From NCBI GenBank assembly GCA_946480175.1, contig CAMLIK010000007.1, positions 1 through 53,996 on the forward strand: a stretch of DNA of 53,996 bases, read 5' to 3'. The DNA is from an uncultured Gilliamella sp. GTDB taxonomy: Bacteria > Pseudomonadota > Gammaproteobacteria > Enterobacterales > Orbaceae. A program made the position numbers and the translations under genes. Within the stretch, counting starts at the first letter, position 1. The number at the start of each line of letters is the position of its first letter. Under the pieces are notes generated by a model, which worked only from the letters and a program-made list of their open reading frames with translations, did not search any database and was not told where the DNA came from. Positions 5,453 to 46,077 of this stretch are shown here, one piece after another.

Positions 5453-5479
5453 AAAAAAGTTGAGGAACGGGGTTTTTGA
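5453..5479 (+). repeat. Intergenic 27-bp motif, copy 1 of 3
   Basis: AAAAAAGTTGAGGAACG followed by GGGTTTTTGA, in the recQ-dnaX gap. It is identical over 27 bases to the copy at 16882-16908 and shares all but three bases with 46051-46077. Only here does downstream DNA let GGGGTTTTT pair with AAAAATCCC (5483-5491). Read as codons from 5453 it spells KKVEERGF and a stop. Confidence 0.7.
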
Positions 5480-5679
5480 ACGAAAAATCCCAAGTTGATG
5501 AAGTTAATTATCACATGGTTTGTCAAACTCGTGTTTTTTTATAATAAGAGTTGTTTTTCAAAATATTTTTAATTAACAAAATGTTGTTTATTATTAACTC
5601 GATTATTGGCATCTTAAAGACTAATTTAACTGTTTATGGTATCATTAGTAAAACTTAATAGTAATAAGTAATGGTGATT

Positions 5680-7758
5680 ATGAGTTATCAAGTTTTAGCG
5701 CGTAAATGGCGACCAAAATCATTTTCTGAGGTGGTGGGGCAACAACATGTTTTGAAGATTTTATCTAATGCCCTATCTCTTGGTCGAGTGCATCATGCTT
5801 ATCTATTTTCTGGTACTCGAGGTGTAGGAAAGACGTCAATCGCTCGTTTGTTAGCTAAAGGCTTAAACTGTGATAGTGGTATTACGGCAACACCTTGTGG
5901 TGTTTGTGATAATTGTCGCGATATTGAGCAAGGTCGTTTCGTTGATTTGTTAGAAATCGATGCTGCTTCACGGACTAAAGTCGAAGACACACGTGAAATC
6001 CTAGATAATATTCAATATTTGCCAACCAAAGGGCGTTTTAAGGTTTATTTGATTGATGAAGTGCATATGTTGTCTCGTAACAGTTTTAATGCATTATTAA
6101 AAACCTTAGAAGAGCCACCGGAACACGTTAAATTTTTGTTGGCGACCACCGATCCTCAAAAATTACCTATCACTATTTTGTCTCGATGTTTACATTTGCA
6201 TTTGAATGTGCTTGATAGGTCATTAATTGGTGGTCAGTTAAATCATATTTTGCAATTAGAGCAAATTGAGAGTGAACCAAAAGCCATTCAGTTGTTAGCA
6301 AAAGCCGCTAATGGTAGTATGCGAGATGCATTAAGTTTGACCGATCAGGCTATTGCACTTGGTAATGGTAAAGTTGATGCGGTTTCAGTCGCATCTATGC
6401 TTGGCACCCTAGATAAGGCAATCCCTTTTGCATTAGTTAACGCACTCTATCAAGGGGATGGTAATTCATTAATGCAACAAATTGAAGCGGCGGCAATGCA
6501 AGGAGCTGATTGGGATAACTTATTAGCGGAAAGTATCGCGTTGTTACACCAAATTGCATTATTGCAGGTGGTACCAACCGCTTTAGGCGATTATACAGAT
6601 AGTGAGGAGCAGTTGCGTTTTTTAGCACAATATATGGCTCCAAATGATGTACAATTGTTCTATCAAATTTTATTAATGGGTCGCAAAGAACTTGCGTTTG
6701 TGCCGGATAAAAAGATGGGCGTTGAGATGAGCTTTTTACGTGCGTTAGCTTTTATGCCTAAAGATGAATATTTGACTACTGCTTCTACAGTTAAAGCGTC
6801 TGCAGCGGGGAAACCGACTGCCCCAAAGTCTAGTCCGTCAAAAGTTAAGTCTACACCAGCATTAGAAGCCTCTGCGATAACGTCGCCGATTTCTGCAATA
6901 AAAGACGCAACTTGTTCGTCAGTTGAATCAGCGACTCTACCACAATTATCAGTCAATAATAATGTTAATAAACAAGTCGATCAAAATAATAATGATGTAT
7001 CACCTGTATCTAATCCTACCATGTCGCTGCCTGATGATGCTTCATCCATCACTAAAAATATCCTAGAGATGCGAATGCAGTTAATGAAAGGGGAACAAAA
7101 TCCAAAAAAGCCTGAACAGGTTGGTATCAATCAACCATCAAGCAATATTGTTAACTCGATATTAAACAAGCAGGTTGCCAAATCAGGGGTTAATGCAGTA
7201 GCGGTTGATGCGGTCGAAGATAAAAAGGAAATTACTGCAGAAAATTATCAATGGCAGTCGACAGGGCTGATTGAATCTAAAAATGAGACAGTCATTGATG
7301 CTAAGTCAGTTAGGGAGTCCCTTAAAGTTGATAAAACGCCAGAGATGACCAAAAAATTGATTGAAGAAATGGTTGAAAAAAATGCTTGGAGTGCTGAAAT
7401 TGAAAAGTTGGAAATTGCGCCGTTAATTAAACAAATTGCGATTAATTCGTATCCTGAAATAGTTGATGATAATCGGGTTGTTTTGCATACCCGTTCGGCT
7501 GTTAGGCATCTAACTAAATCATCCGAAAATTGTACTAAGCTGCAAACCGCGATGTCGACTTATCGTCGAAAGCCACTTAAATTAGAGATTGAAATTGATG
7601 ATAGTAACAATATTAGAACACCTTTAGAATTGCGAGAAGATTTATATCAACAAAAGCTTGAGCAAGCTAAACAGACAATTTATGAAGATCCTAAAGTTGA
7701 CACGATTTGTCAATATTTTGATGCTAAGATTGATGAATTGAGTATTCGTCCTGTATAA
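5680..7758 (+). CDS. dnaX: DNA polymerase III tau/gamma subunit (clamp loader)
   Basis: Tau is the ATPase of the beta-clamp loader and the tether between DnaB helicase and the polymerase cores; the frameshifted short form is gamma. It has 692 residues (E. coli 643). The P-loop GTRGVGKT is at about 45-52, the four zinc cysteines are at 64, 73, 76 and 79, a DEVHML Walker B and the ATPase sensor regions follow, then a long Ser/Ala/Asn-rich linker (about 365-560) and the polymerase-binding C-terminus. E. coli DnaX begins MSYQVLARKWRP, so the ATG at 5680 is chosen over an in-frame ATG at 5671. A programmed -1 frameshift site lies at 7104-7110. ybaB follows after 33 bases, and the two are probably cotranscribed. 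Confidence 0.97.
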   Translation: MSYQVLARKWRPKSFSEVVGQQHVLKILSNALSLGRVHHAYLFSGTRGVGKTSIARLLAKGLNCDSGITATPCGVCDNCRDIEQGRFVDLLEIDAASRTKVEDTREILDNIQYLPTKGRFKVYLIDEVHMLSRNSFNALLKTLEEPPEHVKFLLATTDPQKLPITILSRCLHLHLNVLDRSLIGGQLNHILQLEQIESEPKAIQLLAKAANGSMRDALSLTDQAIALGNGKVDAVSVASMLGTLDKAIPFALVNALYQGDGNSLMQQIEAAAMQGADWDNLLAESIALLHQIALLQVVPTALGDYTDSEEQLRFLAQYMAPNDVQLFYQILLMGRKELAFVPDKKMGVEMSFLRALAFMPKDEYLTTASTVKASAAGKPTAPKSSPSKVKSTPALEASAITSPISAIKDATCSSVESATLPQLSVNNNVNKQVDQNNNDVSPVSNPTMSLPDDASSITKNILEMRMQLMKGEQNPKKPEQVGINQPSSNIVNSILNKQVAKSGVNAVAVDAVEDKKEITAENYQWQSTGLIESKNETVIDAKSVRESLKVDKTPEMTKKLIEEMVEKNAWSAEIEKLEIAPLIKQIAINSYPEIVDDNRVVLHTRSAVRHLTKSSENCTKLQTAMSTYRRKPLKLEIEIDDSNNIRTPLELREDLYQQKLEQAKQTIYEDPKVDTICQYFDAKIDELSIRPV
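7087..7115 (+). promoter_or_regulatory. dnaX: Programmed -1 ribosomal frameshift signal of dnaX (gamma subunit)
   Basis: The slippery heptamer A AAA AAG is at 7104-7110 in the right phase (zero-frame codons CCA AAA AAG). An internal Shine-Dalgarno AAAGGGGAA (7087-7095) ends its G-run 10 bases upstream. After slippage the ribosome reads GCC then TGA (7113-7115), giving a gamma of about 478 residues. CCTGAACAGG and GGTTG...CAACC immediately downstream can form weak stems. All three elements match the known E. coli dnaX cassette. Confidence 0.88.
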
Positions 7759-7791
7759 TTACAGACTAATTGTTTTTAAAGAGGAATTATT

Positions 7792-8130
7792 ATGTTTCCA
7801 GGTGGAAAAGGTGGTTTGGGCAATTTGATGAAACAAGCCCAGCAAATGCAAGCGAAAATGCAGCAAGCTCAGGAAGAGATTGCTAAATTAGAGGTTACCG
7901 GTGAGTCTGGTGCGGGCATCGTTAAGGTTACAGTTAATGGTGCACATAGTTGTAAACGAGTCGAAATAGATCCCTCTTTATTGACCGAAGATGATAAAGA
8001 GATGTTAGAAGATTTGATCGCTGCTGCTTACAATGATGCCACTCGTCGTTTGGAAGAAGCTCAAAAAGAGCGTATGGCTCAAGTTACTGGAGGCATGCAG
8101 TTACCACCTGGTTTTAAAATGCCATTCTAA
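7792..8130 (+). CDS. ybaB: YbaB/EbfC family nucleoid-associated protein
   Basis: This 112-residue protein belongs to the small DNA-binding dimer family encoded just after dnaX in most bacteria. The N-terminus is Gly-rich, then [16 protein letters not shown] forms the first amphipathic helix, the core reads [16 protein letters not shown], and it ends in LPPGFKMPF as in E. coli (109 residues). GAGG precedes the ATG by six to eight bases. It sits 33 bases after dnaX and is followed by a strong terminator. recR, which normally follows ybaB, is not here. Confidence 0.95.
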
Positions 8131-8166
8131 GATGAATAATTAACTCTACATTTTCAGATTCGCATT

Positions 8167-8190
8167 GCCGACTTGTGTCGGCACGTTTTT
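8167..8190 (+). terminator. Rho-independent terminator after ybaB
   Basis: GCCGAC (8167-8172), loop TTGT, GTCGGC (8177-8182), then ACG and TTTTT. It closes the dnaX-ybaB unit. Confidence 0.85.
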
Positions 8191-8293
8191 AATTAATTGC
8201 CTGTCTATTTATACAGTTTATCTTTATTAATTTTCTCCTATCAGGTAAACTACAGTTGTTTATTAATTCCCATTAATTTATTAAGGATATATT

Positions 8294-8902
8294 GTGATAG
8301 GTCGTTTACGTGGAATCATTATTGAAAAACAACCACCAAAAGTGTTGATTGAAGTTGGTGGTGTTGGCTATGAAGTTTTTATGCCAATGACCTGTTTTTA
8401 TGAGTTACCTGATAATGGTAAAGAAGTGATTGTGTTAACTCATTTTGCCGTCCGAGAAGATGCTCAAGTATTATATGGTTTTAATTATGAACAAGAGCGA
8501 GAGTTGTTTCGTGAGTTAATTAAAGTTAATGGTGTTGGGCCAAAACTAGCGTTAGCGATTTTATCTGGAATGTCCGCTGGTCAATTTATTAGTGCGGTTG
8601 AACAAAGTGAGATTAAGACCCTAGTTAAATTACCAGGCGTTGGTACCAAAACGGCTGAACGATTGATTGTTGAGATGAAAGATCGTGTCAAACGGTTCAA
8701 TGAAGAGTTAGTAAATGTGAACGCAACTCTAGAGACCGGCAGCGTTAAAAAATCAACAAATCAAATTGAAGGTGAAGCGGCTTCTGCACTTATTGCTCTT
8801 GGTTATAAACCACAAGAAGCGAGTCGTATTATTAGTAAAGTTATGAAGCCAGACATGGATTGTGAAATGCTAATACGTGAAGCATTAAAGTCAGCATTAT
8901 AA
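8294..8902 (+). CDS. ruvA: Holliday junction branch migration protein RuvA
   Basis: RuvA binds four-way junctions as a tetramer and loads the RuvB motor. The 202 residues match E. coli (203): the N-terminal OB domain [15 protein letters not shown], two helix-hairpin-helix motifs ([11 protein letters not shown] about 78-88 and [11 protein letters not shown] about 113-123), an acidic linker and the C-terminal RuvB-binding helices ([11 protein letters not shown]). The start codon is GTG at 8294 with AAGGAT seven bases upstream, and the N-terminus fits homologues exactly. ruvB follows after 17 bases, so the two form an operon; ruvC is absent from the window. Confidence 0.97.
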
Positions 8903-8919
8903 AAAAATAGGGATCGATG

Positions 8920-9924
8920 ATGATTGAAGCAGATCGTTTAATTGCACCACAGGCACAAAAAGAAGAAGAGTCGTTAGATCGAGCTATTCGTCCTAAATAT
9001 TTGGATGAATATATAGGTCAACCACAAGTACGAGAGCAGATGAAAATCTTTATACAAGCTGCCAAGCAACGTAGTGATGCACTCGATCATGTTTTGATCT
9101 TTGGACCTCCTGGACTAGGTAAAACGACATTAGCTAATATTGTCGCTAACGAAATGAATGTTAATCTGCGCACTACATCTGGCCCTGTTTTAGAGAAAGC
9201 TGGCGATTTGGCGGCAATGTTAACAAATTTAGAGCCGAATGATGTGTTGTTTATTGATGAAATCCATCGCTTATCGCCAGTTGTTGAAGAAATCTTATAT
9301 CCTGCAATGGAAGATTATCAACTTGATATTATGATTGGTGAAGGTCCAGCGGCACGTTCAATTAAAATCGATCTTCCACCCTTTACGCTCATTGGCGCAA
9401 CGACTCGAGCCGGTTCGTTAACATCGCCATTACGTGATCGTTTTGGTATTGTGCAACGCCTTGAGTTTTATCGGGTTGAGGATTTGGAATATATTGTAAG
9501 CCGTAGTGCAAAATTTTTAGGAATGGATCTCTCTAAAGAAGGAGCTTACTTAATTGCTAAACGTTCCCGAGGTACCCCTCGAATTGCTAATCGTTTATTA
9601 CGACGGGTTAGAGATTATGCTGATGTGAAATCTAAAGGTGTTATTGATAAACGTATTGCCACTCAAGCTTTAGATATGTTAGATGTCGATAATGAAGGTT
9701 TTGATTATATGGATCGCAAATTACTACTTGCAATCATCGAAAAATTTATGGGGGGACCAGTTGGATTAGATAATATTGCAGCTGCAATAGGTGAAGAGCG
9801 CGAAACCATTGAAGATGTGTTGGAGCCATTTTTGATTCAACAAGGTTATATCCAACGAACGCCAAGAGGACGAATTGCAACACCGCATGCTTATCGGCAT
9901 TTTGGTATTGTTCAAGATAATTAA
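8920..9924 (+). CDS. ruvB: Holliday junction branch migration ATPase RuvB
   Basis: RuvB is the hexameric AAA+ ring that pumps DNA through RuvA-bound junctions. It has 334 residues, with the P-loop GPPGLGKT (about 62-69), Walker B FIDEIHRL, sensor and arginine-finger region [18 protein letters not shown], and the C-terminal winged helix ([13 protein letters not shown]). Two adjacent ATGs exist (8917 and 8920); the second gives MIEADRLI as in E. coli. It is translated from an operon with ruvA and ends at a terminator shared with convergent cysK. Confidence 0.97.
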
Positions 9925-9956
9925 TTGGATTTAATGTTAATTATTCTACATTTAAT

Positions 9957-9982
9957 AAAACACCGCCAAATGGCGGTGTTTT
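9957..9982. terminator. Bidirectional terminator between ruvB and cysK
   Basis: AAAACACCGCCA (9957-9968), loop AA, TGGCGGTGTTTT (9971-9982): a 12-bp perfect stem with A and T runs on both sides, serving the two convergent genes. Confidence 0.92.
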
Positions 9983-9998
9983 GCGTTTTTAGGAGCAA

Positions 9999-10964
9999 TC
10001 AACCAAGTTCTTTTTCAGTAAAAATGCCACTAAATAAATCAGTACTAAGATAACGTTCACCAGAAGAAGGTAATATAACGACGATAGTTTTATTGGTATT
10101 TTCTGGTAATCGCGCTAAGCGGTCTGCGGCAAATACCGCAGCGCCTGATGAAATTCCTGCTAAGATGCCTTCTTTTTCCATTATTATGCGAGCCGTTTCG
10201 ATTGCTTCTTCGTTAGAAACTCTTTCGACCAGATCGATTAAGCTTAAATCCAAATTGCCAGGTATAAATCCAGCGCCAATGCCTTGTATTTTATGCGGTC
10301 CTGGTTTGATTGGTTCGCCGGTCAGTGCCTGAGTGATAACAGGAGAAGTAGATGGTTCAACCGCGACAGCAGTAATGTTTTTACCTTGAGTATTTTTGAT
10401 GTATTTTGTTACGCCAGTAAATGTTCCACCGGTCCCTACGCCAGCAACGAAGATGTCGACTTGCCCATCAGTATCAAGCCAGATTTCTGGTCCTGTGGTT
10501 TTTTCGTGTATTTCCGGATTGGCAGGATTACTGAATTGTTGAAGCATGATATTGTGTTTTGGATTGCTGGCGACGATCTCCTCAGCTTTTTCGATTGCGC
10601 CTTTCATCCCTTTGGCCGTTTCAGTTAATACTAGGTTAGCACCTAACGCTTTTAGAAGTTTGCGACGTTCAATACTCATGCTCTCAGGCATGGTTAAGGT
10701 TAATTTGTAACCACGAGCAGCAGCAACAGCAGCTAATGCAATACCCGTATTACCACTGGTTGGTTCAATAAGTTCAACACCAGAGGTGAGCAAACCTCTT
10801 TTTTCGGCATCCCAAATCATATTTGATGCAATACGACATTTTATGCTGAAGCTAGGATTACGAGATTCGACTTTGGCTAATATGTTACCTTTACCAAAAT
10901 GTTTTAATCGAACTAGAGGTGTGTGGCCAATAGTTTGTGAATTATCATCAAATATCTTACTCAT
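9999..10964 (-). CDS. cysK: Cysteine synthase A (O-acetylserine sulfhydrylase)
   Basis: CysK makes L-cysteine from O-acetylserine and sulfide using pyridoxal phosphate. It has 321 residues (E. coli 323). The PLP lysine is Lys42 in NPSFSIKCR, the substrate loop is [10 protein letters not shown] (about 67-76), the phosphate-binding loop is [10 protein letters not shown], and SSGERYLST is near the end. The identity pattern with E. coli CysK is high throughout, including CysK-specific segments rather than CysM ones. It is monocistronic and convergent with ruvB. No CysB site could be recognised in the long upstream gap. Confidence 0.97.
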
Positions 10965-11468
10965 GCTTGGATCCTTTTATTGCTTAATGACAAATAGCAT
11001 CATTTTGTTAGTGCTAATAAGTAATATCAATTATAAATGTAACGATGAAAGATGGAACTAATTAATAATTATAACAATATGCAATTTGGTAATAAGCAAA
11101 AAAATAATGAGAAAAATTACTGATATCAATGGTGATACATAGCTAATTTGAAAAACTTGCGAGTTGATAAATTCTATTTTCCAGTAATAATAAATCAAGG
11201 TTTTTCATTTAATATGGATTTCTTATTAAGTAAATTGGTCATATTTAAAAATTTGAATTTACACCGTCTCATGTTATGTCTTTTAATGACCATTAGGTTA
11301 ATATACATAACCCATAATTTATGACGAGAATATAAATATTTGTATTATTTTATTATGCTTCTATTACAACATTGGTAATTTTGAAGCGATAATCAAATTA
11401 AAATCGATTACTTATCTATCTGATTGAATAATTGAAACTAATAATTAGCGTTATGGTAACTTTTTAAG
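10965..11468. other. 504-base AT-rich gap between cysK and priC
   Basis: No reading frame with homology or a ribosome site was found here. The gap must contain the cysK promoter at its left end, but no clear -35/-10 pair could be assigned. No terminator with a GC stem is visible for priC at the right end, and no repeats of note were seen. Confidence 0.4.
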
Positions 11469-11996
11469 TTAATCAAGTGTACAATTTTCTATGTCTAACT
11501 CAATCTTTTTTATAGCTTGTTCACAGCGGGATATGCGATTATCTAAGGTGGCTATTTTAGTGTGATCTATCGATTCTGTTGAAAGTTCAAATTCGTATTT
11601 CATTTCTTGTAGTCGTCGCAGATAATCTAAATGTCTAGAGTGTTTTTCAGCTAATGTTTCGTGAATAATATGCTCAGTGGTACGTTTACGTAAATGCCGA
11701 GTAGCAAGTTCACGAGTAAGTGCAGTGATTTGGTCAATTAACTTTTCAGACAAAAATTCGATTTGTGAGTGTTTATATGAGAGCGCTGCATCATTAAGCG
11801 CTCGGTAGGTTTGTTTTATTTTGTCAAGATAGAATTGATTGTTGGTTTCAATTTTGCTGGTGTAAAATAGATGCTCATCAAAATAATGTTCTTGATAAAA
11901 TTGTTGATCAGATAGGCTGATTTGCTGTTCAAGTTCATTGATTTGATTTTTTAATTTTTCCAAAAATTTTTGCATGGATATATCAGTTGTTGTCAT
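11469..11996 (-). CDS. priC: Primosomal replication protein PriC
   Basis: PriC reloads DnaB on stalled forks by contacting SSB and fork DNA. The 175-residue helical protein shows weak overall but diagnostic similarity to E. coli PriC: FDEHLFYT for FDRHLFQT, HLDYLRRLQEMKYEFE for the ERRLREMVAERRARL helix, and the C-terminal LDNRISRCEQAIKKIELDIE for YEARLARCRHALEKIENRLA. It is rich in Glu/Gln/Leu heptads. The ATG at 11996 is preferred to an in-frame TTG at 12005. Its start overlaps the end of yfbV by 14 bases, indicating translational coupling. Confidence 0.75.
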   Translation of the reverse strand: MTTTDISMQKFLEKLKNQINELEQQISLSDQQFYQEHYFDEHLFYTSKIETNNQFYLDKIKQTYRALNDAALSYKHSQIEFLSEKLIDQITALTRELATRHLRKRTTEHIIHETLAEKHSRHLDYLRRLQEMKYEFELSTESIDHTKIATLDNRISRCEQAIKKIELDIENCTLD

Positions 11997-12447
11997 CTTG
12001 TCCAAAGTAATTATCTAAATGAATTTTAGATAAGTTTAAAAGTTTCATTAACGATTCAAAGGTTAATTTTTCATTAGGATTCCTATTTGGACTTAATACC
12101 TTCTTTTCAATTAGTTGTGATTTGATACGATTATAACTATCAACTAAGTTGAGAGGTAATGGTGATTGAGAGCGATAGCCTAACCATAAGATCCCTTGAA
12201 TAGGTAAGCTTAAGGCAAATAAAATAGTAATGAGTGTAACCGCTAATTGTGCAGGTAAATAATATTGCCAAAGAATTAAGCCGATGATGATGGGCGGTAA
12301 AATTTTTTTTGTCATTTTGATGTAGTTAATCACTTTTAATTCCGGAAATGAATAGTATAGCGCCCTGTCTTTTGGGCAAATATCTATATATCTTTGTCCT
12401 GCCTTAAAAATTTTAACTAAGTTCATCTGGTTTGGATTCCTCGACAT
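11983..12447 (-). CDS. yfbV: YfbV (DUF412/UPF0208) inner-membrane protein
   Basis: This is a 154-residue two-helix membrane protein of the family linked in E. coli to Ter-macrodomain insulation. Conserved elements are FKAGQRYIDICPKDR, the hydrophobic pair around ILPPIIIGLILWQYY and LITILFALSLPIQGILWLG, and the RSQSPLP motif. The start at 12447 aligns the N-terminus with E. coli YfbV, but only the in-frame ATG at 12426 has a ribosome site (GAGGAA about ten bases upstream), so a 147-residue form is possible. As in E. coli, it is divergent from ackA. It is coupled to priC downstream. Confidence 0.88.
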   Translation of the reverse strand: MSRNPNQMNLVKIFKAGQRYIDICPKDRALYYSFPELKVINYIKMTKKILPPIIIGLILWQYYLPAQLAVTLITILFALSLPIQGILWLGYRSQSPLPLNLVDSYNRIKSQLIEKKVLSPNRNPNEKLTFESLMKLLNLSKIHLDNYFGQDDNN

Positions 12448-12619
12448 TCACATTTTATTGTCTTAAAATAGTACTATTCAAATTGGGGGCTCTCTTTATT
12501 TTATATCAAAATTCAAGATATCAGAAGTCGCCTTGTATAACACATTGATTATTTAATTATGTGTAGAGTTACCAAGTTTGATTGGTATAAATCTTTTTAT
12601 TTAATTTATAGGAATTACT

Positions 12620-13825
12620 ATGTCATCAAGTAATAATGCTCTTGTTCTGAATTGTGGAAGTTCATCTTTAAAATTCGCTATCATAAACCCTGAAAATGGC
12701 GATGAATTTTTATCTGGCTTAGCTGAATGTTTTCACCTTCCTGATGCCCGTATCAAATGGAAATTAGATGGTGAAAAGCAAGAGGCTTCTTTGGGTTCTG
12801 GCGCTGCGCATAGCGAAGCGATTAGATTTATCGTTAATAGTATTTTTCCACAAAAACCAGAATTATTAGACAGTATTAAATCAATTGGGCACCGTATTGT
12901 TCATGGCGGTGAAAAGTATACCCAATCAGTTGTGATTGATGATTCAGTTTTAAAAGGTATTGAAGAAGCATCAGCTTTTGCTCCTTTACATAATCCAGCA
13001 CATTTAATTGGTATTCGTGAGGCTTTTACTGCATTTCCACATTTAAAAAATAAAAATGTTGCCGTGTTTGATACCGCTTTCCACACTACAATGCCAAAAG
13101 AAGCCTATTTATATGCAATTCCTAACGAATTATATACTAAACACGGCGTTCGTCGTTATGGTGCTCATGGTACTAGCCATTATTATGTAAGTCGTGAAGC
13201 AGCAAAATTATTAAATAAACCTGTTGATCAAACCAATGTGATCACCTGTCACTTGGGTAATGGTGCTTCAATTACTGCTGTGAAAAACGGTAAATGCGTT
13301 GAAACTTCTATGGGCTTAACGCCACTTGAAGGCCTTGTTATGGGCACTCGTAGTGGTGATATCGATCCAGCTATTATGTTCTTCTTACATGACAATTTAA
13401 ATATGTCAGTTGCTGATATTAATAATCTATTAAATAAAAAATCAGGTTTATTAGGCTTAACCGGTGTAAGTAGCGATTGTCGTTATGTAACAGATAATGC
13501 AGATAAAGATGAAAATGCGAAAAATGCTTTAGAAGTATTTGTTCATCGTTTAGTAAAATACATCGGTGGTTATGCAATGTTATTAGATGGCCGTTTAGAT
13601 GCTATCGTGTTTACTGGTGGTATTGGTGAAAATGCTGAAGTAATTCGTCGCAAAACTTTAGAAAAATTAAGCATACTTGGTTTTGAGCTTGATCAAGAAC
13701 GCAATTTAGCGGCACGTTTTGGTAACGGCGGTGTCATCACTAAAGATGGTTCAGCTATCGCAATGGTTATTCCAACTAACGAAGAACTTGTCATTGCACA
13801 AGATGCTGCACGCTTAACAGCTTAA
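12620..13825 (+). CDS. ackA: Acetate kinase
   Basis: AckA transfers phosphate between acetyl phosphate and ADP, making ATP during overflow or fermentative metabolism. The 401 residues match the E. coli length (400). Signatures are [11 protein letters not shown] near the N-terminus, GHRIVHGG (substrate site), the [11 protein letters not shown] loop, [10 protein letters not shown] and the C-terminal [23 protein letters not shown] precedes the ATG. A terminator stands between ackA and pta, so pta expression probably depends on partial readthrough or its own start. Confidence 0.98.
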
Positions 13826-13833
13826 GGATTTTG

Positions 13834-13860
13834 AAACCGCCGATAAGGCGGTTTGTTTTT
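13834..13860 (+). terminator. Terminator (attenuating) between ackA and pta
   Basis: AAACCGCC (13834-13841), loop GATAA, GGCGGTTT (13847-13854), then GTTTTT. It lies in the 67-base gap of an otherwise operon-like pair. Confidence 0.82.
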
Positions 13861-16088: not shown

Positions 16089-17027
16089 TTTATATCTGTT
16101 CAACAAATCTTATCATTTATAAGTGGCGAAATCAGTTAAGGATGATGTAAGTTAAATATCTTTTAGCGCTGTTTCTTATTCAAATCCTATCTATGGTAAA
16201 TTAATCTATTTTAACAAAAGCATCAAAATGGCTATGCCAATAATTAAAATATAAGGTAAATCAACTAATGAATTGGCTTAATGTCTATTCTATTTGAAAA
16301 GTGATATTAACACTATACACCTACAGATAGTTTTCATTACTAATGTTTGGTAAAATGTATGGGGAAAACATGAACGCAAATTAATTAATAAACTAAAAGT
16401 ATTGGTGATTTTATTTAATTCAATAAATCATCAAGCTATTATCATTATCAATTTTGTATAATGTAAAAATATTTTTTTATCACAGCCCCTTTTTCTTCTT
16501 CTACTTAAAAAATCCACTACGTTTAAGCTAAATGTAGCTTGCGAAGTATTGTACCTTTGCATATGCTGACAACTGAGATCATACTTTATATATTTGGTAA
16601 AGCTATTTTTTATGTTTAACAAATAATAGGCGATAAGTTAAAGTTGAACTATGGAGAAAGAAAGTCTCGTACTGATTACTGTGAGGAGAGACAAATAAAT
16701 TTTTCTAAAAAATTGAACATTTGAGCAAAACGGGATGGCCATAAGGGGCCAAGTATCTGAACTGATAGAGTAATTGTTAAAGGTATCGTTAATACCTCTA
16801 ACTCAGAAATTGCCTTCGAAATGAAAAAAACACCCAAGAATTAAATGTCCTAAACGGCGCGGAGCTAAAAATTATGCATTAAAAAAAGTTGAGGAACGGG
16901 GTTTTTGAATAAACACTTAGTTTCTAATATGCTTTGTTCAATGAGTTTATTTAATTCGATTTTTAATTTATAATATTCTGATAATATTATGTATTTTTAT
17001 AAGAACGACAATTAAAAATTGCGGATA
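16089..17027. other. 939-base gene-poor region, possibly decayed coding DNA
   Basis: No intact gene was found. From about 16650 to 16910 composition rises and one plus frame reads, with stops, fragments such as KRDGHKGPSI, TDRVIVKGIVNTSNSEIAFEMKK and, after a frame change, KRRGAKNYALKKVEERGF-stop. This looks like a disrupted HTH-type protein or transposase remnant, but no family can be assigned. Two small hairpins are present (GGCC...GGCC near 16736-16749 and GGTAT...ATACC near 16781-16795). The frame ends in copy 2 of the 27-bp motif. A 63-codon minus frame at 16431-16622 is not convincing. Confidence 0.4.
16882..16908 (+). repeat. Intergenic 27-bp motif, copy 2 of 3
   Basis: AAAAAAGTTGAGGAACG followed by GGGTTTTTGA, identical over all 27 bases to copy 1, with one additional A on its left. 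It is at the end of the degenerate region after pta. Flanking bases differ from the other copies. The same KKVEERGF-stop phase is open leftwards here for about 22 codons. Confidence 0.7.
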
Positions 17028-38182: not shown

Positions 38183-38201
38183 AAAAAGACTCACTTGAGT
38201 A

Positions 38202-38858
38202 TTATCTAAAAATATTGATGTAATTGATAATATTGTCTTTAGGGCTGCTTAAACATTTTTCCATAAAGTCAGTTCTCATTTCTTGAAGGATACTTGGATT
38301 TTCATCAATCAAAAAGTGAGAGTAATTATCTTTAAGGATTTTTGCTTTTAAAGTGGCCAAATCTTGCACTGACATCTTAAACAAAGGCTGATATCGTATA
38401 GTTATATTATCGATATCATTAGTGTAAACGGCTTCAACAAAATCTGCTGACCATTGACAGTAGTTTTTAACATTACCTTCAGTCGGGTTAATTTTTTTCA
38501 ACTCAATTTTATGTTCGGCTTGATTTTCCTCGATAACTTTTTTGAGTTGAATATCATATTTTAACTTGTAGTATTCGTTAAGATAAAAATTTAACACACA
38601 GGAAGACTGATTGCTGTCATCTTTACAGTTTAAGATACCGTGTTTAGTTATATAGCTGTCGAAGTGATTGTCTCCAACAAGTTGGAGTAATTGTTTTTTG
38701 GCATTTACAACAAATTGGTTATTTTGTTCCGATTGTTGTTTTAAAATCGTTAACTGATCGACTTCAATTTTGCCATCAGTTGAAGACATATTGTTTTTTA
38801 CACAGCCTGCGGCAAGAATAGAGACAATGGCGCATGTAAGGATATTACTTATTTTCAT
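38202..38858 (-). CDS. Unknown lipoprotein upstream of opgGH
   Basis: This is a 218-residue predicted lipoprotein with a signal peptide MKISNILTCAIVSILAAGC, lipobox LAAGC and Cys19 as the lipidated residue; the next residues (VKN) do not include Asp at +2, so outer-membrane sorting is likely. The mature part is helical and Lys/Gln/Asn-rich, with four cysteines that could form disulfides (GILNCKDDSNQSSC, KNYCQWSAD, MEKCLSS). I do not recognise a family. It ends 20 bases before the opgG start on the same strand, so it probably belongs to the opgGH operon and may relate to the envelope glucans. Confidence 0.75.
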   Translation of the reverse strand: MKISNILTCAIVSILAAGCVKNNMSSTDGKIEVDQLTILKQQSEQNNQFVVNAKKQLLQLVGDNHFDSYITKHGILNCKDDSNQSSCVLNFYLNEYYKLKYDIQLKKVIEENQAEHKIELKKINPTEGNVKNYCQWSADFVEAVYTNDIDNITIRYQPLFKMSVQDLATLKAKILKDNYSHFLIDENPSILQEMRTDFMEKCLSSPKDNIINYINIFR

Positions 38859-39026
38859 ATATCAAATTCCATGAACATATTCTTGAGTTGTAATTTCAGG
38901 ATGAGCAACTTAACACTTTTTAGTGAAGTCATAGCGCGAAATTATATACTCTTATTCTTTTAAAAACACTAGATGATTACATTTATTTAATAAAAAACGC
39001 ATTAATTATTCTTTTGTACGTTTATA

Positions 39027-39269
39027 TTAATGTCGACATATTTTTCGAACATCGACAGTAAATTGTGAACCATCAGCTAAAGCAGGCTTAAATTTTCCTT
39101 TTGCCTTTAAAAAGGCAATAAGCTGCTCGGCATTCATATTGGAGTTAGAGCAAGTATGAAATCGGGCCTCTATACCAAATTTTTTATGGATAGCATCAAG
39201 TAAAGATGATTCGGTGTAATCATTTCCATCCATCATATCAAGTACTTCATGGCCGTGAATTGATATCAT
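39027..39269 (-). CDS. yecH: YecH-family metal-binding protein (DUF2492)
   Basis: This 80-residue protein closely follows E. coli YecH: ISIHGHEVLDMM at the start, DAIHKKFGIEARFHTCSNSNM in the middle, AEQLIAFLKAKGKFKP, and a C-terminal KICRH. The His-Gly-His, His-Thr-Cys and Cys-Arg-His motifs are the likely metal ligands. Function is not established. GGAGAGGAAAA precedes the ATG, a strong ribosome site. It is monocistronic. Confidence 0.92.
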   Translation of the reverse strand: MISIHGHEVLDMMDGNDYTESSLLDAIHKKFGIEARFHTCSNSNMNAEQLIAFLKAKGKFKPALADGSQFTVDVRKICRH

Positions 39270-39385
39270 TTTTCCTCTCCAAGTAGCGGTTTAAACTAAC
39301 TTTGTTTTTTATTTTTTTAAGCGGTGAAAGATAGCAGATATTATCAATAAAAAAAAGGGTTTAAATGTTAAAAATATCATTAATT

Positions 39386-39416
39386 TTTTTAACCCTGCTG
39401 ATGATCAGGGTTAAAA
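39386..39416. other. Long AT-capped hairpin downstream of rnb
   Basis: TTTTTAACCCTG (39386-39397) pairs with CAGGGTTAAAAA (39406-39417) around CTGATGAT. The 12-bp stem lies about 40 bases past the rnb stop codon. The U-tract is in the 5' rather than the 3' arm for the minus strand, so it is more a 3'-end stabilising hairpin than a classic terminator. Confidence 0.5.
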
Positions 39417-39453
39417 ATTGACAGTTATAAATTGATTAAACTGGCTAAAGAGT

Positions 39454-41397
39454 TTATGCGTTAGATGCAATCAATTTTACTATTATCGATTGGTTTTCCA
39501 TTCTAACGTTATGAATTGCTATAGTGATGAGATCAGCAAGTTTGTATGCAGTTTCATCTTTGATTTTAATTATTCCTTCTTCCGGATCAGGAGCTATTTC
39601 ATCACGGACGGAATGAATCATTGATAGCGGTAAAAAGCCAAGTGCACCAATATCAGTTAAACGCACTCGTGCACCACCACGATTGATATCCACTATTTCA
39701 GCAGTAAATGTTTGTCCTATTTTATCTAATAAATATTGGCTATAAAGGTTGTCAGCAATATCGCGCTCGGCCAAACGTAACTTTTTGCGTCTATCTGCCA
39801 TGCCATCTAATTGCTCGTTGGCTGGCGGCGTTAATACTTGCGCCTTAAGCGAGGCTTTAAGTAAACGATGGTTTATCATGTCACCATATTTACGAATTGG
39901 TGATGTCCATGTTGCATAAGCTTTGAACCCTAAGCCAAAATGAGGTTCTGGCGTTAATGAAAAATCAGCAGGCGTTTGGAATTTTCGTAATCTTGTAGAT
40001 AAAAAGTCATTATCCTCGATTAATCGACGTAATTTGATATATCCTTCAAATGAGATAAGTGATTCTTTATCAAAATCGGTGATGCCATTATCGGCTAATA
40101 TTTTTAAGATTTGTTCAATGTATTTAGTGTCAAATCCTGAATGGATATTAAACACACCAGTACCTACTTTTTCTTTCAAATACATGGTTAGTGCTAAATT
40201 AGCAATAATCATCACTTCTTCAACGATGTTATTAGCGATACCGCGTGATTCTTTAATGATTGTTTTTACTTGGCGATTATCATCAAGAATGAATCGATAA
40301 TCATTATTTGCTTTGAATACTAACGCATTTTTTTGTCGCCAATTTATACGCGCTTTTGCCAATTCTGATAGCAATTTAAGCTGTTCTTTAATCGTTGCAT
40401 TATTGTTATTTAAGTCACTTCGACCAGCTAAGAAATCAGAAACATTGTTGTAAGAAAGTTTAGCTTTTGATTCAATCCACGCAGGTATAAAACTAATATC
40501 ATCATTAGCAAATTGACCGTTATTATCAATGTTAATTTTACAAACGATGGTTGGTCTTTTTTGATTGGCTTTTAATGAACACAGATCTTCCGCCAACTGT
40601 TTAGGTAACATTGGAATATTAAAGTCTGGTAGATAGGTGGTAAAGTTACGAATTTTAGCAATATTGTCGATTTCACTATCTTGCTCAATATATGCAGTAG
40701 GATCGGCAATGGCGATCATTAGGTTATAGTTACCCATTTCATTTTGTGAAATGGTGATCGCATCGTCCATATCTTCAGTATTTTCACTATCAATCGTAAA
40801 AAATTGAACATCAGTTAAATCTTCTCGATTTTCTTGTTCATTTACTGAAATTATGAAGGACTCAGCTTGAGGTGCTTCATCTTCTAAATCATAACGAGCT
40901 AAGGTTTTAAGCCATAGTTGGTAATTCGAGTCAGAACTGGCGATAAATTTTGTTACCTCAGCAGAAAAATGATTCTTATCTTTTTCTAATGGATGTGATT
41001 GCAAAGTAGCAACAACCCAATCACCTTCTTTTAATTTTTGCTCAACTTGCGGATTAACTTTACAACGTATAGCAAAATTTGTCGGCATATTTTCCGGATA
41101 AATAGCCATCGCACGATCTAAGAAGCCGATTTTACCAATAAATTTACGTAAGCTACTTTCAATTAATATTTCTGGTTCAAATGACTCTTTATCATTGTTA
41201 GTTATGATAGTTCCAGAAACTTTATCACCATGACAAAGCTGTTTCATTTTAGAAATAGAAATAAAATAATTGGTCTTATTATCAACATCTAAAAAACCAA
41301 AACCTTTTTCATGAGCTCGGACGATACCTTCAACACGGGGTTTTTGTTCGTTTAATTCTTGTTTTAGTTTGGCGAGTAATGGGTTATTTTGAAACAT
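39454..41397 (-). CDS. rnb: Exoribonuclease II
   Basis: RNase II is the main hydrolytic 3'-5' exonuclease for unstructured RNA. It has 647 residues (E. coli 644). It starts MFQNNPLLAKLKQEL as in E. coli, has two cold-shock domains (KPRVEGIVRAHEKGFGFLDV), the RNB domain with the metal-binding aspartates in DSENTEDMDDAITIS, the conserved PDFNIPMLPKQLAEDLCSL and FSLTPEPHFGLG...TSPIRKYGDMINHRLL, and a C-terminal S1 domain. The basic tail of RNase R is absent, which separates the two paralogues here. It is divergent from ybfF. Confidence 0.96.
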   Translation of the reverse strand: MFQNNPLLAKLKQELNEQKPRVEGIVRAHEKGFGFLDVDNKTNYFISISKMKQLCHGDKVSGTIITNNDKESFEPEILIESSLRKFIGKIGFLDRAMAIYPENMPTNFAIRCKVNPQVEQKLKEGDWVVATLQSHPLEKDKNHFSAEVTKFIASSDSNYQLWLKTLARYDLEDEAPQAESFIISVNEQENREDLTDVQFFTIDSENTEDMDDAITISQNEMGNYNLMIAIADPTAYIEQDSEIDNIAKIRNFTTYLPDFNIPMLPKQLAEDLCSLKANQKRPTIVCKINIDNNGQFANDDISFIPAWIESKAKLSYNNVSDFLAGRSDLNNNNATIKEQLKLLSELAKARINWRQKNALVFKANNDYRFILDDNRQVKTIIKESRGIANNIVEEVMIIANLALTMYLKEKVGTGVFNIHSGFDTKYIEQILKILADNGITDFDKESLISFEGYIKLRRLIEDNDFLSTRLRKFQTPADFSLTPEPHFGLGFKAYATWTSPIRKYGDMINHRLLKASLKAQVLTPPANEQLDGMADRRKKLRLAERDIADNLYSQYLLDKIGQTFTAEIVDINRGGARVRLTDIGALGFLPLSMIHSVRDEIAPDPEEGIIKIKDETAYKLADLITIAIHNVRMENQSIIVKLIASNA

Positions 41398-41521
41398 AGT
41401 TCTTAATATTAATTGAAAAATTTGTTCTAAATTCTATCATAGTTATGCAATTTAGAGTTATTGAATTGTGTAAGAATGATGATGCAACAGTCTAAATGAC
41501 AATAGATTATAGAGTGGCATA

Positions 41522-42265
41522 ATGAAATTAAATTATAAAATACAGGGTGATAACCAACCAATTTTACTGATACATGGCCTATTTGGTAGCTTAGATAATT
41601 TAAATATGCTAGCGAAAGATCTGTCTAATAATTATCAAACAATTCAGGTTGATTTGCGTAACCATGGTCAATCACCATGGTCAAAAGTGATGAATTATCA
41701 AGTGATGGCCGAGGATGTTGCCGAGTTATGTCTTGATTTACAATTAAAAAATATCGTCTTGATTGGCCATTCAATGGGTGGAAAAGTTGCGTTGCAATTA
41801 AGCCAACTGATCCCTGTTTCTAAAATCTGTGCTATTGATATTGCGCCAGTTAAGTATAATGAAACAATGAATATACCAGTTATTAAAGCGTTAGCGCAAT
41901 GTATCAATCAAAAATTAATTGATAAAAAACAGATTGTAGATGTTATGCAAGAACATGGTTTAACTACCCCAACTATTTTATTTTTGCTTAAATCATTTAA
42001 ACATGAACATTGGCTGTTTAATGCCGATGTGATTATCAATCAATATGACCATATTTGTGATTGGCACACCATTTCACCTTGTGACATAGCGACTTTATTT
42101 ATTCGTGGTGGAAATTCTAACTATATAAATGATAAAGATTATCCAGCTATATTTAGCCAATTCCCAAATACTCAAATAGAAGTAATAGAAGGCGCTAGTC
42201 ATAATGTTCATGCTGAAAGGACGCAACAAGTTTTACAACTTTTGTATACATGGTTAATCAATTGA
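41522..42265 (+). CDS. ybfF: Alpha/beta-hydrolase esterase YbfF
   Basis: YbfF is an acyl-CoA/short-chain thioesterase-type esterase. It has 247 residues (E. coli 254). The oxyanion region is LIHGLFGSLDNL, the nucleophile elbow is GHSMGGK, DLRNHGQSP follows strand 4, and the catalytic His lies in EGASHNVHAE near the C-terminus. A cap domain occupies about 110-185. It is a single gene divergent from rnb, with no strong ribosome site. Confidence 0.88.
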   Translation: MKLNYKIQGDNQPILLIHGLFGSLDNLNMLAKDLSNNYQTIQVDLRNHGQSPWSKVMNYQVMAEDVAELCLDLQLKNIVLIGHSMGGKVALQLSQLIPVSKICAIDIAPVKYNETMNIPVIKALAQCINQKLIDKKQIVDVMQEHGLTTPTILFLLKSFKHEHWLFNADVIINQYDHICDWHTISPCDIATLFIRGGNSNYINDKDYPAIFSQFPNTQIEVIEGASHNVHAERTQQVLQLLYTWLIN

Positions 42266-42556
42266 ACATTAGTAACCTTAAGGTTTAATCGATTTGTAAT
42301 AGTGATTTTTGTTGGTTATTTAAAATGAATTGATACTTATCATTAAATAAAATAACATCTTCAATTACGACTTTAACTTTAGAAAATCAGCCATCGCTAT
42401 TTTGTGTCATAATGGATAAGTTAAGTATCGGCGATGCAATAGCCCTTGCTTTAAGCGCCGAAATTATGCTACTTATTAAATCTTCAAATACTAACGTTAC
42501 AACGATTGGTAATATAAAACGTTTTATGCCAAACAGATAAGGTGTCGCTATGGATA
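42266..42556. other. Intergenic between ybfF and ppdC; possible coding fragment
   Basis: A plus-strand frame is open from 42334 to a TAA at 42538-42540. It contains an ATG at 42412 without a ribosome site and reads DKLSIGDAIALALSAEIMLL, then KSSNTNV. The pattern faintly resembles a TOBE/molybdate-binding domain C-terminus, so this may be a remnant, but I cannot support a gene. No terminator for either convergent unit was found. Confidence 0.25.
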
Positions 42557-42895
42557 TTAATCACATAATAAACGTTGCTGTTTAATCGTTTTATGATGAG
42601 GTGGGGTAATGCTGATAAAAACCATCTGACACGATGTATTATAAGATTGGCTATGAAGTTGATATTGCCAATCATTTGGTATGATTTGATGTACAAAGTG
42701 AGGATAACTATCAAGTAAAGCAAACGCGATTTGCTCCGCTTTGAATTGTTTTTGGAAATAGTGGTGCTGACTAATAATTGCGGTTAAATAACCAATAAAA
42801 CCCAGCATAATGATGGCAAACATCAAGCAAGACAACATAACTTCAACTAGACTAAAACCAGCTATATTTTCACTATTTACAACTTTATTATTCAC
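42557..42895 (-). CDS. ppdC: Prepilin-type minor pseudopilin, PpdC-like
   Basis: This 112-residue protein has a type IV prepilin leader: a short basic leader ending IAG, cleavage before Phe, then FSLVEVMLSCLMFAIIMLGFIGYLTAI, with the required Glu at +5. The remainder is a small globular domain with a Cys pair (TSCQMVF...LLCD). It is the last gene of a four-gene minus-strand operon and overlaps the preceding gene by eight bases. By order and features it corresponds to E. coli ppdC; sequence similarity outside the leader is low, so the symbol is positional. Confidence 0.7.
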   Translation of the reverse strand: MNNKVVNSENIAGFSLVEVMLSCLMFAIIMLGFIGYLTAIISQHHYFQKQFKAEQIAFALLDSYPHFVHQIIPNDWQYQLHSQSYNTSCQMVFISITPPHHKTIKQQRLLCD

Positions 42896-43325
42896 AATCT
42901 ACTATCTTTTTTTCAGGACAATAATCTAACCAATGACCCTTTTCAACGCTGAGTTGGTTATTTTCAAAATGGGTTAACATATAAAGATAATACTCATCAG
43001 CTTGTGTGCGTACTAGGGTATAGTTATCTACTTTTAATCGTGATTTTTTTATACACGCTTTTAATTGATATTTAGCATCAGATAAGCATTGCCACTCATC
43101 AGTCGGTAGTTGCCAAATTTGCTTGGTTGCCCAATTTAAACTTGAGCTTGCTAGATTAAACTGGCGGTAGTGTTGGATTTCAATCAAATAACTCTTTTTT
43201 AACGAATCAATCGTCGCCTGAAAACCAGTTAATAATGTTAGTCCGACGATAGTTAAGATGATTACCATCAACAGAGTGCTAAAGCCAGCGTTCGGTTTTC
43301 TAGTTTCATTAGAATGGATTTTCAT
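42888..43325 (-). CDS. ygdB: Prepilin-like protein, YgdB-like
   Basis: This 145-residue protein starts with a leader ending NAG before FSTLLMVIILTIVGLTLLTGFQ; the +5 Glu is missing, as in the PilX/YgdB class. The C-terminus GHWLDYCPEKKIVDCE closely mirrors GWSDFCPLKERALCQ of E. coli YgdB, including both cysteines, and a further Cys pair lies at WQCLSDAKYQLKACIKK. It overlaps ppdB by 17 bases and ppdC by eight, so the operon is tightly coupled. Confidence 0.8.
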   Translation of the reverse strand: MKIHSNETRKPNAGFSTLLMVIILTIVGLTLLTGFQATIDSLKKSYLIEIQHYRQFNLASSSLNWATKQIWQLPTDEWQCLSDAKYQLKACIKKSRLKVDNYTLVRTQADEYYLYMLTHFENNQLSVEKGHWLDYCPEKKIVDCE

Positions 43326-43872
43326 TTTTGATAATGGTTACCGTTTGATATTTGATTTTTTTGTTTTTCTTTAATTGAGCACTAATGTCTATTTCAAAAT
43401 GGTTATTTTGTTTTTTAATTGAAAATTGGGTTATTTTAATATCATGAGGATCGAATATCTTTTCCCAATTGCTACCTTCACAATTGATTGTTCCGATCTT
43501 ATATTCCAAATTATTGTTATAAAATCGATAAACGAAGATATCGGATTTAGTTGGATTGAATCGATCATAAACCCAATCATTACGGATCTCACTATCATAA
43601 CGAAATATATAGCAGTTTTTTGCTGGGTTGATTTCAATAGGTTGTTGATTCATTTTTTCTGGTTTATTCGCGATAAATCCAGCGCGTTTTAAATCTTTAG
43701 CGATACTAACAACTCCTTGATGAATATTCTTCTGTAAATGAATATTAAGGTTTTGCTCGAGCAAGATAGATTGTAATTTACTGTAAAATACCGTGATGCC
43801 AATAAAAATTAAGCTAGAAAAGGTAATGCTTAACAGCATTTCAAATAGCGAAAAGCCATTTTGTTTCAACAT
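43309..43872 (-). CDS. ppdB: Prepilin-type minor pseudopilin, PpdB/PilW-like
   Basis: This 187-residue protein has the leader MLKQNG then FSLFEMLLSITFSSLIFIGIT with Glu at +5. The globular part has the PilW-like SKDLKRAGFIANKP segment and a Cys pair (KNCYIF...INCEGSN). It overlaps ppdA by seven bases and ygdB by 17. In E. coli this gene set lies upstream of recC. Minor pseudopilins prime assembly of type IV pili or competence pseudopili; no pilus motor or major pilin gene is in the window. Confidence 0.8.
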   Translation of the reverse strand: MLKQNGFSLFEMLLSITFSSLIFIGITVFYSKLQSILLEQNLNIHLQKNIHQGVVSIAKDLKRAGFIANKPEKMNQQPIEINPAKNCYIFRYDSEIRNDWVYDRFNPTKSDIFVYRFYNNNLEYKIGTINCEGSNWEKIFDPHDIKITQFSIKKQNNHFEIDISAQLKKNKKIKYQTVTIIKNENPF

Positions 43873-44342
43873 CGTGGTAATCCTGGCAAATAACTATTTT
43901 TTTTACAAAATCGAATTCGTCCACGATATGAAATGATAATTTGCGTGGTGCCAATGGCGTTATGTAATTCAAATGTACCCGTTTGTGCCATGTTTTTTCT
44001 GCCCCAAAAGGAGATAACCTTTTTATCTGCTAAATCACTTAACTCAACGGAATTATTGGGTTTAATAAAATACGACGAGCCTTCTTGACAGGTGGGTGGT
44101 TTTTCGTCTTTACTAATGCTTAGACACCAAGGTGACAAAAAATAATATACGTGAATGTTCTCGTTGGCGTTATAAGCTTTGGTTTGAACTTCTTCCAAGA
44201 AGTAGGCTAATTGTTTAGTGGTGGCGGTGAGTTCATTACGCAGTTGTAACTCTTGCCAATGTTGAACGCCGATTGAAGCCAAAATAGCACCAATACAGAT
44301 AACAAATAAAAGTTCTATCAAAGAAAACCCACTGTTTTGCAT
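43866..44342 (-). CDS. ppdA: Prepilin-type minor pseudopilin, PpdA/FimT/GspH-like
   Basis: This 158-residue protein has the leader MQNSG then FSLIELLFVICIGAILASIGVQHWQEL, Glu at +5, a classic GspH/FimT start. The C-terminus has the GspH-type pattern GTTQIIISYRGRIRFCKK and ends with LPGLPRC, as is usual for this class. It is the first gene of the four-gene operon. Its promoter must lie in the 217-base divergent region shared with dapD, where a long dyad is found. Confidence 0.82.
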   Translation of the reverse strand: MQNSGFSLIELLFVICIGAILASIGVQHWQELQLRNELTATTKQLAYFLEEVQTKAYNANENIHVYYFLSPWCLSISKDEKPPTCQEGSSYFIKPNNSVELSDLADKKVISFWGRKNMAQTGTFELHNAIGTTQIIISYRGRIRFCKKNSYLPGLPRC

Positions 44343-44441
44343 TATTTTTTGCTGTGAAATTTAATGAGGGTTTAACTTTATCTTCAAATAAAATAACTTT
44401 ATTAAATTTTGTTCAGATTTTGTGAAAGATATTCCAAATTA

Positions 44442-44476
44442 TTTATCGTTTTTGAAAATTTCAATGATACGATAAA
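44442..44476. promoter_or_regulatory. Composite 35-bp dyad between ppdA and dapD
   Basis: TTTATCGT (44442-44449) and ACGATAAA (44469-44476) flank an inner palindrome TTGAAA-A-TTTCAA (44452-44464). A likely dapD -10, TATACT, is at 44504-44509. The position between two divergent promoters fits an operator; the binding protein is unknown. Confidence 0.4.
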
Positions 44477-44559
44477 CCACTTAAAAATAACTGCATATTA
44501 TATTATACTGTTTGCCCTATTAAATTTGCTAACGGACTTAAAGTTAAAGGAAACGAGAA

Positions 44560-45384
44560 ATGCAACAATTACAAACTATTATTGAGGCAGCATTTGAACG
44601 TCGTGCTGAAATTACTCCTTCAAATGTTGATACAGTAACACGTGATGCAATTAATCAATGTATCGCTTTATTAGATAGCGGTAAAATGCGTGTTGCGGAA
44701 AAGATTAATGGTGATTGGGTGACTCATCAATGGTTAAAAAAAGCGGTATTGCTCTCTTTCCGGATTAATGAAAACCAACTTATTGGCGGTGGCGCGACTA
44801 ATTATTATGACAAAGTACCATTAAAATTTGCCGATTATGATCAAGCACGCTTCCAGCAAGAGGGCTTCCGTGTTGTTCCATCTGCGATTGCGCGCAAAGG
44901 CGCTTACGTCGCTCGTAATACAGTGTTAATGCCATCTTACGTGAATATCGGTGCTTATGTTGATGAAGGTACGATGGTTGACACTTGGGTAACCGTTGGT
45001 TCATGTGCGCAAATTGGTAAAAATGTTCATTTATCTGGTGGTGTTGGTATCGGTGGTGTTTTAGAGCCATTACAAGCAAACCCAACTATTATTGAGGATA
45101 ACTGCTTTATTGGTGCGCGTAGTGAAATCGTCGAAGGTGTGATTGTCGAAGAAGGCAGTGTGATCTCAATGGGTGTATTTATTGGTCAAAGTACTAAAAT
45201 TTATGATCGTGCAACCGGTGAAGTTCATTACGGTCGTGTGCCTGCAGGTTCGGTTGTGGTGTCAGGTAACTTACCAACTAAAGATGGTAAATATAGCCTT
45301 TATTGTGCAGTAATTGTTAAAAAGGTAGATGCGAAAACTTTAGGTAAAGTTGGCATTAACGAATTACTTCGTACTATCGATTAA
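44560..45384 (+). CDS. dapD: 2,3,4,5-tetrahydropyridine-2,6-dicarboxylate N-succinyltransferase
   Basis: DapD succinylates tetrahydrodipicolinate in the succinylase branch of lysine and diaminopimelate synthesis. The 274 residues equal the E. coli length. The N-terminal helical domain is followed by the left-handed beta-helix of hexapeptide repeats (about 105-230: [21 protein letters not shown], then [20 protein letters not shown]) and ends [20 protein letters not shown] is well placed before the ATG. It is monocistronic here. A weak GC-rich hairpin at about 45398-45420 follows without a U-tract. Confidence 0.98.
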
Positions 45385-45477
45385 TCTTAATTATAAAGCC
45401 GCCGTAGATATTATGGTGGCAACTTAAAAAGTTGTATAGAATAAGTCATATTTATAACGATTCGAAGAGGAAAATTT

Positions 45478-45969
45478 ATGCCTTCTTTTGATATTGTATC
45501 AGAGATTCAAATGCCAGAGGTTAAAAACGGTGTCGACAATGCGACTCGTGAACTGGCAACTCGTTGGGACTTCAAAAATGTCGAAGCATCTTTTGAGCTC
45601 AATGAAAAAAATGAAACCATCAAAGCAACTAGCCAATCTGATTTCCAAGTCCAGCAGCTATTGGATATTTTACGTGATAAGCTGGCTAAACGTGGTATTG
45701 ATGGTGGTGCGCTAGAAATTCCAGAAGAAATGGAACATAGCGGCAAGTTTTATAGTATTACTGTCAAACTAAAACAAGGCATCGATAAAGAGTTAGCTAA
45801 AAAAATAGTTAAGCTAGTTAAAGACAGTAAACTCAAAGTGCAAGCTCAAGTACAAGGTGAGCAGGTTCGCGTTACTGGTAAGTCGCGTGATGATTTACAA
45901 GCGACCATGGCATTAGTGAAAAACGGTGAATTAGGGCAACCCTTCCAATTTACTAATTTCCGCGACTAA
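45478..45969 (+). CDS. yajQ: YajQ-family nucleotide-binding protein
   Basis: The 163 residues match E. coli YajQ (163), a two-domain ferredoxin-like protein that binds nucleotides; homologues in Xanthomonas bind cyclic di-GMP. Conserved parts are [77 protein letters not shown] and FTNFRD at the end. GAAGAGG precedes the ATG. It ends at a strong terminator. Confidence 0.96.
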
Positions 45970-45991
45970 CCATTTTCAATTCATTATTTTT

Positions 45992-46029
45992 GCCGACGTG
46001 GTTTTAAAGACATTGGTCGGCATTTTTTT
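45992..46029 (+). terminator. Rho-independent terminator after yajQ
   Basis: GCCGAC (45992-45997) pairs with GTCGGC (46016-46021), with a large loop, followed by A and a run of seven T. Confidence 0.82.
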
Positions 46030-46050
46030 ATCTATCTTGCCAAAAATCTG

Positions 46051-46077
46051 AAAAAAGTTGAGGAACGCACTTTTTGA
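46051..46077 (+). repeat. Intergenic 27-bp motif, copy 3 of 3 (variant)
   Basis: AAAAAAGTTGAGGAACG then CAC then TTTTTGA, between yajQ's terminator and bglX. It differs from copies 1 and 2 only in the three bases CAC for GGG. This change lets AAAAAGT pair with ACTTTTT. Read as codons it gives KKVEERTF and a stop. Confidence 0.65.

Follow-up and report, generated by a model that had tools for sequence, protein, structure and literature searches.

The window analyzed here, a stretch of 53,996 nucleotides from an uncultured Gilliamella sp. (contig CAMLIK010000007.1), carries three plus-strand copies of a directional 27-bp motif, at 5453..5479 between recQ and dnaX, at 16882..16908 in a long intergenic region behind pta, and at 46051..46077 between yajQ and bglX, all of which had been located correctly in the initial annotation of this DNA. 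The names of the neighboring genes (recQ, dnaX, pta, yajQ, and bglX) were backed by NCBIfam. The central three letters of the motif are GGG in the first two copies and CAC in the third, which is preceded by a sequence that resembles a stem-loop by eye. The recurrence was indeed beyond chance, as no match with up to three mismatches was found in 100 dinucleotide shuffles. The motif, in the form hereafter called D2, is the local spelling of a directional DNA element that is spread through Gilliamella. Rfam gave three matches at the gathering threshold in the window, none of which was at a copy of the element. A match to HPnc0260 at 3111-3248 (62.6 bits, compared with a threshold of 59 bits) overlaps a tRNA on the opposite strand and is possibly spurious.

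In the genome to which the window belongs (G000; 2.54 Mb, 173 contigs, 86% complete), a search with a 26-base version of the pattern, allowing up to three mismatches, indicated 71 D2 copies, 33 forward and 38 reverse, 18 of them free of mismatches, and the reversed pattern had no copies. In an alignment of 64 copies, conservation set in sharply at the A-run and faded after TTTTTGA, followed by a weak A-richness a few bases further on the 3' side. The flanks, which had been noted as unrelated, share this trace, which extends about 5-9 bases past the motif. The center was mostly GGG, and AGG, CAC, TAC, GTC, and GTG were also present among the 18 perfect copies. The suspected intergenic bias was evident in that only 3 of the 69 copies with ORF context overlapped an ORF. 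Among the 58 copies for which both neighbors were known, 22 were in tandem-sense, 10 in tandem-antisense, 17 in convergent, and 9 in divergent contexts. Many copies lay 5-40 bases past a stop codon, and doublets and inverted pairs also exist. Short cores of the motif were enriched in stretches of another genome, G004, that had been picked around copies.

An alignment of the yajQ-bglX region across species exposed a motif that occupies this site and is related to D2 but distinct from it; we call it D1 (~44 bp; consensus TTTTGTnAArAAGTTTCAGgaaannnCTACGTTTnAGTATAAAA). No consensus base pairs were found among 31 D1 copies, and the single strands of the D2 and D1 consensus folded no better than shuffles, with no hairpin. 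Together with the lack of an Rfam match at the window copies, these results speak against the small structured RNA that had been offered as one reading of the motif. A sequence-only model of D1 had matches in 36 of 44 genomes of the family, with at least 20 matches in 24 of the 35 Gilliamella genomes; the counts near 138 per genome obtained with this model may stand for 138 or more. Six genomes (G000, G004, G014, G015, G016, and G021) carried D2, with 18-121 copies of the G000 pattern and one to four D1 matches each, and a pattern fitted to G016 found 96 copies in that genome and one in the reversed control. Few copies of either form (0-9) were present in G008, G025, G028, G031, and G032, of which G031 and G032 are just 59-67% complete; D2 had no match in G008, G025, and G028, and D1 had 0-4. 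In four other genera, searched for D1 only, one match was found in each of two of nine genomes. A scan of a genome collection with one D2 pattern returned 23 stretches, of which 17 were from Gilliamella; the other 6 had a single match each and came from unrelated taxa. In trees read without support values, the six D2 genomes grouped together for yajQ, and the metG and dnaX trees were mosaic. G014, which has D1 copies at metG, grouped with the D1 genomes in the metG tree, and G034, whose dnaX copy is D2-like and decayed, grouped with the D2 genomes in the dnaX tree. The statement that no such element had been described survives within the scope of our database and literature searches; in the latter, which covered mostly non-subscription work, no paper linked Gilliamella to uptake sequences or to repetitive extragenic elements, and a few mentioned it together with repetitive sequences or natural transformation.

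Sites that were not preselected were obtained from G026 as 20 evenly spaced 20-kb pieces (400 kb in total). This sample held 20 copies, corresponding to ~140 per genome, with none inside an ORF and none in the reversed control, and no scores fell between 12 and 29 bits, that is, there were no intermediates. By eye, these copies exhibited no sense preference. A search of the sample for shared words (12-mers in at least 7 or 14-mers in at least 5 of the 20 pieces) found the element as the sole dispersed repeat, and the same search found nothing in samples of this size from G025 and from G036, which belongs to another genus. These results show that the element is a discrete family that is free of hairpins, lies almost exclusively between genes, and reaches ~70-140 copies in genomes where it is abundant.

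We then compared the addresses of the two forms by masking the element and matching both flanks to D1-bearing loci of other species. As a result, D2 was found at the place of D1, in the same orientation and with both flanks matching, at 7 of 60 G000 loci (L007, L009, L015, L052, L055, L079, and L080), a lower bound because the D1 comparison set was limited to available loci. L077, another G000 locus, was not counted among the seven: both of its flanks matched a D1 locus, but the distances clearly differed. Five of the 20 unselected G026 sites belong to the in-place set. At the yajQ-bglX place, G011 (L201) carries the D1 form with both flanks matching. Thus, the sequence was changed in place at several loci, one lineage having D2 at an address where D1 stands in others. 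At L007 and L079, the center GCACT is common to D2 and D1 and the arms differ, which argues against overwriting by copies. The distances from the dnaX start were about -136 or -160 for D1 and -202 and -218 for D2, with no common position, and dnaX was therefore left out of the in-place changes.

The sites also persist to varying degrees. The recQ-dnaX copy of the window is identical in G004 at 27 of 27 positions, at the same place, with flanks of 60-75% identity, and so is the yajQ-bglX copy, with flanks of 62-86% identity; at the recQ-dnaX place, G014 and G034 have a decayed D2-like sequence. These two sites thus have counterparts in other species, a point to be added to the initial annotation, and the motif is neither limited to three copies nor devoid of conservation in relatives. 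At metG, one copy was conserved no better than its flanks (0.886 vs. 0.82-0.94; five genomes) and a second was conserved better (0.958 vs. 0.81-0.89; four genomes). The element was above the cut-off at 14 of 30 dnaX loci (weakly so at four) and at 13 of 29 yajQ loci, and it was below the cut-off at 16 loci in each case.

In addition to single sites, the element forms arrays. The 11 that we inspected had 3-7 copies at a spacing of 108-394 bases and followed the plan U-E-S-E-S-E-D. Judged by eye, the right boundary was at or within ~15 bases of the 3' end of the element in 8 of the 11, and the left boundary was sharp in 3. Compared with G033, G013, G001, and G014, G034 carries two additional 224-base units at metG, and its extra copies arose by tandem duplication of this unit with breakpoints outside the element. 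Recombination at the element, which the boundaries seen by eye had suggested, may be a cause of the arrays but was contradicted at metG by these breakpoints. In two blocks that are collinear between G033 and G034, all of the element sites (6 and 2, respectively) are shared, according to coordinate arithmetic on unaligned sequences. No pair of empty and filled sites was seen at the loci compared across species. No end of an insertion sequence was recognised, and inverted ends around a transposase were likewise not recognised by eye at the G004 and G015 loci inspected; the genome-wide part of this search covered one transposase family (PF01797). A phage or plasmid origin was rejected, as viral contigs matched neither the strict D1 pattern nor the D2 pattern used, phage records had no D2 match, and plasmids gave only three weak Cytobacillus matches to D1 (E 0.06).

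The best reading of the element is, in our judgment, a recognition site for a putative co-evolving DNA-binding factor, a reading in which our confidence and our doubt are about equal. A sequence-specific DNA-binding factor would read the element, and its preference may have drifted, with the sites then following through point changes and small deletions. More tentatively, the factor may serve the entire chromosome or DNA exchange in general and not regulate genes one by one, since copies occur in tandem, convergent, and divergent contexts and individual loci gain and lose them. Without a reader common to them, it would be hard to account for many fixed sites that change spelling together across the genus. 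The function would be dispensable, given that G008, G025, and G028 do almost without the element. The copies are near-complete and lack decayed intermediates, which exceeds what binding specificity should require, and central letters common to many copies within a genome, for example, in G012, fit copy-derived subfamilies; both points count against a reader, as do the dnaX and yajQ loci below the cut-off and the metG copy that is conserved no better than its flanks.

A special case of the reader is a DNA uptake signal with dialects in naturally transformable Gilliamella, the receptor of which prefers the local form; we regard this special case as rather unlikely. The element resembles the DUS and USS of Neisseriaceae and Pasteurellaceae in being a short directional repeat with lineage dialects. 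It is free of hairpins, its dialects change in place, as described for USS, which evolve through point mutations (PMC7811141), and its inverted pairs are able to form stem-loops, as described for DUS (PMC3630211). Mosaic loci with foreign-form copies, such as D1 at metG in G014, and the gene trees also fit. ComEC was matched in all 35 Gilliamella genomes, above the cut-off in 34, but the element-poor G008, G025, and G028 are among them, so that this match neither supports nor refutes uptake. For DUS genomes, ~940-6000 copies are given, also within genes, with one-mismatch DUS outnumbering perfect ones (PMC3630211), whereas the element has tens to ~140 copies, is nearly absent from genes, has no near-misses in the G026 sample, and forms tandem arrays. 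An REP-like miniature repeat, once spread by a putative transposase or recombinase, with most copies having since become fixed, deserves tentative consideration as a possibility on the unlikely side. The extragenic all-or-none unit, the central letters shared within a genome, the array boundaries near its 3' end, and its absence from some species are consistent with such a repeat, and the REP/BIME repeats with RAYT transposases are likewise short and extragenic, with species-specific forms and paired and arrayed copies (PMC3733652). However, the element has no palindrome, a GTAG/CGTC-tagged hairpin was not seen, and the Y1 transposase PF01797 was present in 1 of 35 genomes, G019, which is not a D2 genome; this absence is to be read with G000 at 86% completeness and G004 as one complete contig. 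A REP/RAYT system in the strict sense was therefore rejected, and the wider REP-like reading is still live. The collinear blocks of G033 and G034, the metG duplication, and the change of dialect in place also weigh against it.

It is improbable that the element acts at transcript ends, in sense behind genes, by termination, stability, or binding of a protein to RNA. The excess of tandem-sense over tandem-antisense contexts in G000, the positions shortly after stop codons, and the stem-loops seen by eye around the element at metG and in inverted pairs point to such a role, but 9 of the 58 G000 copies are in divergent contexts, the unselected G026 copies have no sense preference, and no structure was found in either form. 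The initial annotation had also read the three copies as KKVEER(G/T)F-stop, which might make the motif the end of a scattered coding sequence that has decayed. This frame is open in the D2 consensus, and one copy, L067, ends an ORF in frame when translated by eye; nevertheless, given the rarity of ORF overlap and the other residues encoded by D1 at the same loci, we consider this origin scarcely credible. The suggestion of a protein-binding or uptake-type signal, on the other hand, survives, and the earlier interpretation is thus supported in part. Integron attC sites were rejected, as the integrase TIGR02249 was over the cut-off in none of the 35 genomes; sub-threshold matches in 34 genomes are presumably XerC/XerD. 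The element is like attC arrays in that repeated sites alternate with longer units, and direct copies can enclose genes, as in G004 and G015; no pair of empty and filled sites and no fold of the D1 copies were found. Its array units, however, are mostly one sequence copied, and at metG, in one array of close species, growth occurred through a duplication whose breakpoints lay outside the element. It also recalls the neisserial dRS3/NIME mosaic arrays, in which a short repeat bounds longer locus-specific repeats; dRS3 is, however, an inverted repeat, and the element is not.

Returning to a co-evolving reader, it may be speculated, as an unlikely extension, that the element represents a new type of all-or-none, dialect-bearing self-DNA signal, in which the spelling of about 100 long-lived addresses would co-evolve with the putative reader, the dialect would partly separate bee-gut lineages in gene exchange, and imported foreign-form copies would decay. 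The reader, if found, would disclose uptake-signal biology in bee-gut symbionts or another chromosome-wide DNA signal, and foreign-form copies may mark exchange between Gilliamella lineages.

With respect to orientation along the chromosome, the 100 of 121 G004 copies that were listed formed long one-way blocks, pointing to the plus side from 0.3 to 0.9 Mb, to the minus side from there to 1.39 Mb, and to the plus side again thereafter, a pattern that did not recur in G026 and recurred in part in G016. In G016, 46 of 60 copies were consistent with replication polarity, with the split chosen post hoc. Among the copies listed, polarity persisted in convergent and divergent contexts in G004 (17 leading and 2 lagging) and was unclear in G026 (3 leading and 2 lagging); with fixed quarters, it was significant in G016 alone (30 of 38) and not in G004, G026, G013, or G001. 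A runs test with clusters collapsed was significant in G004 only. No convincing dif site, as judged by a consensus, was found in the window or the examined loci. Replication polarity is thus not claimed as a general feature, as its strong appearance in G004 and G016 was not upheld across genomes.

Several observations concern the neighbors of the arrays. Direct copies of the element flank a tandem protein family in G004 (L112, L113, L115, L116, and L123) and G015 (L353), the members of which have ~380-530 residues, are probably secreted, and have variable C-termini ending in LC..P; the four members tested had no Pfam match. Element arrays adjoin CRISPR arrays in L347, L348, and L353 (G016 and G015), where Rfam CRISPR-DR4 was above threshold, and in L340 (G026), where it was below. 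Furthermore, copies of the element in G015 and G016 are interspersed in alternation with a repeat that measures up to ~390 bases (L347, 3473-5041; L353, 2346-5053), with Rfam TwoAYGGAY just below threshold (best 41.6 of 43 bits), and a relative is present in G026 (L340, 3978-6159). Outside the core claim, the plus strand of the window at 16561..16855 may hold a decayed copy of the repeat that precedes the element in the G015 and G016 arrays, a weak resemblance in which three short stretches match the G016 unit in collinear order, the best at 64% over 86 bases, found in a search of ~1 kb with permissive scoring.
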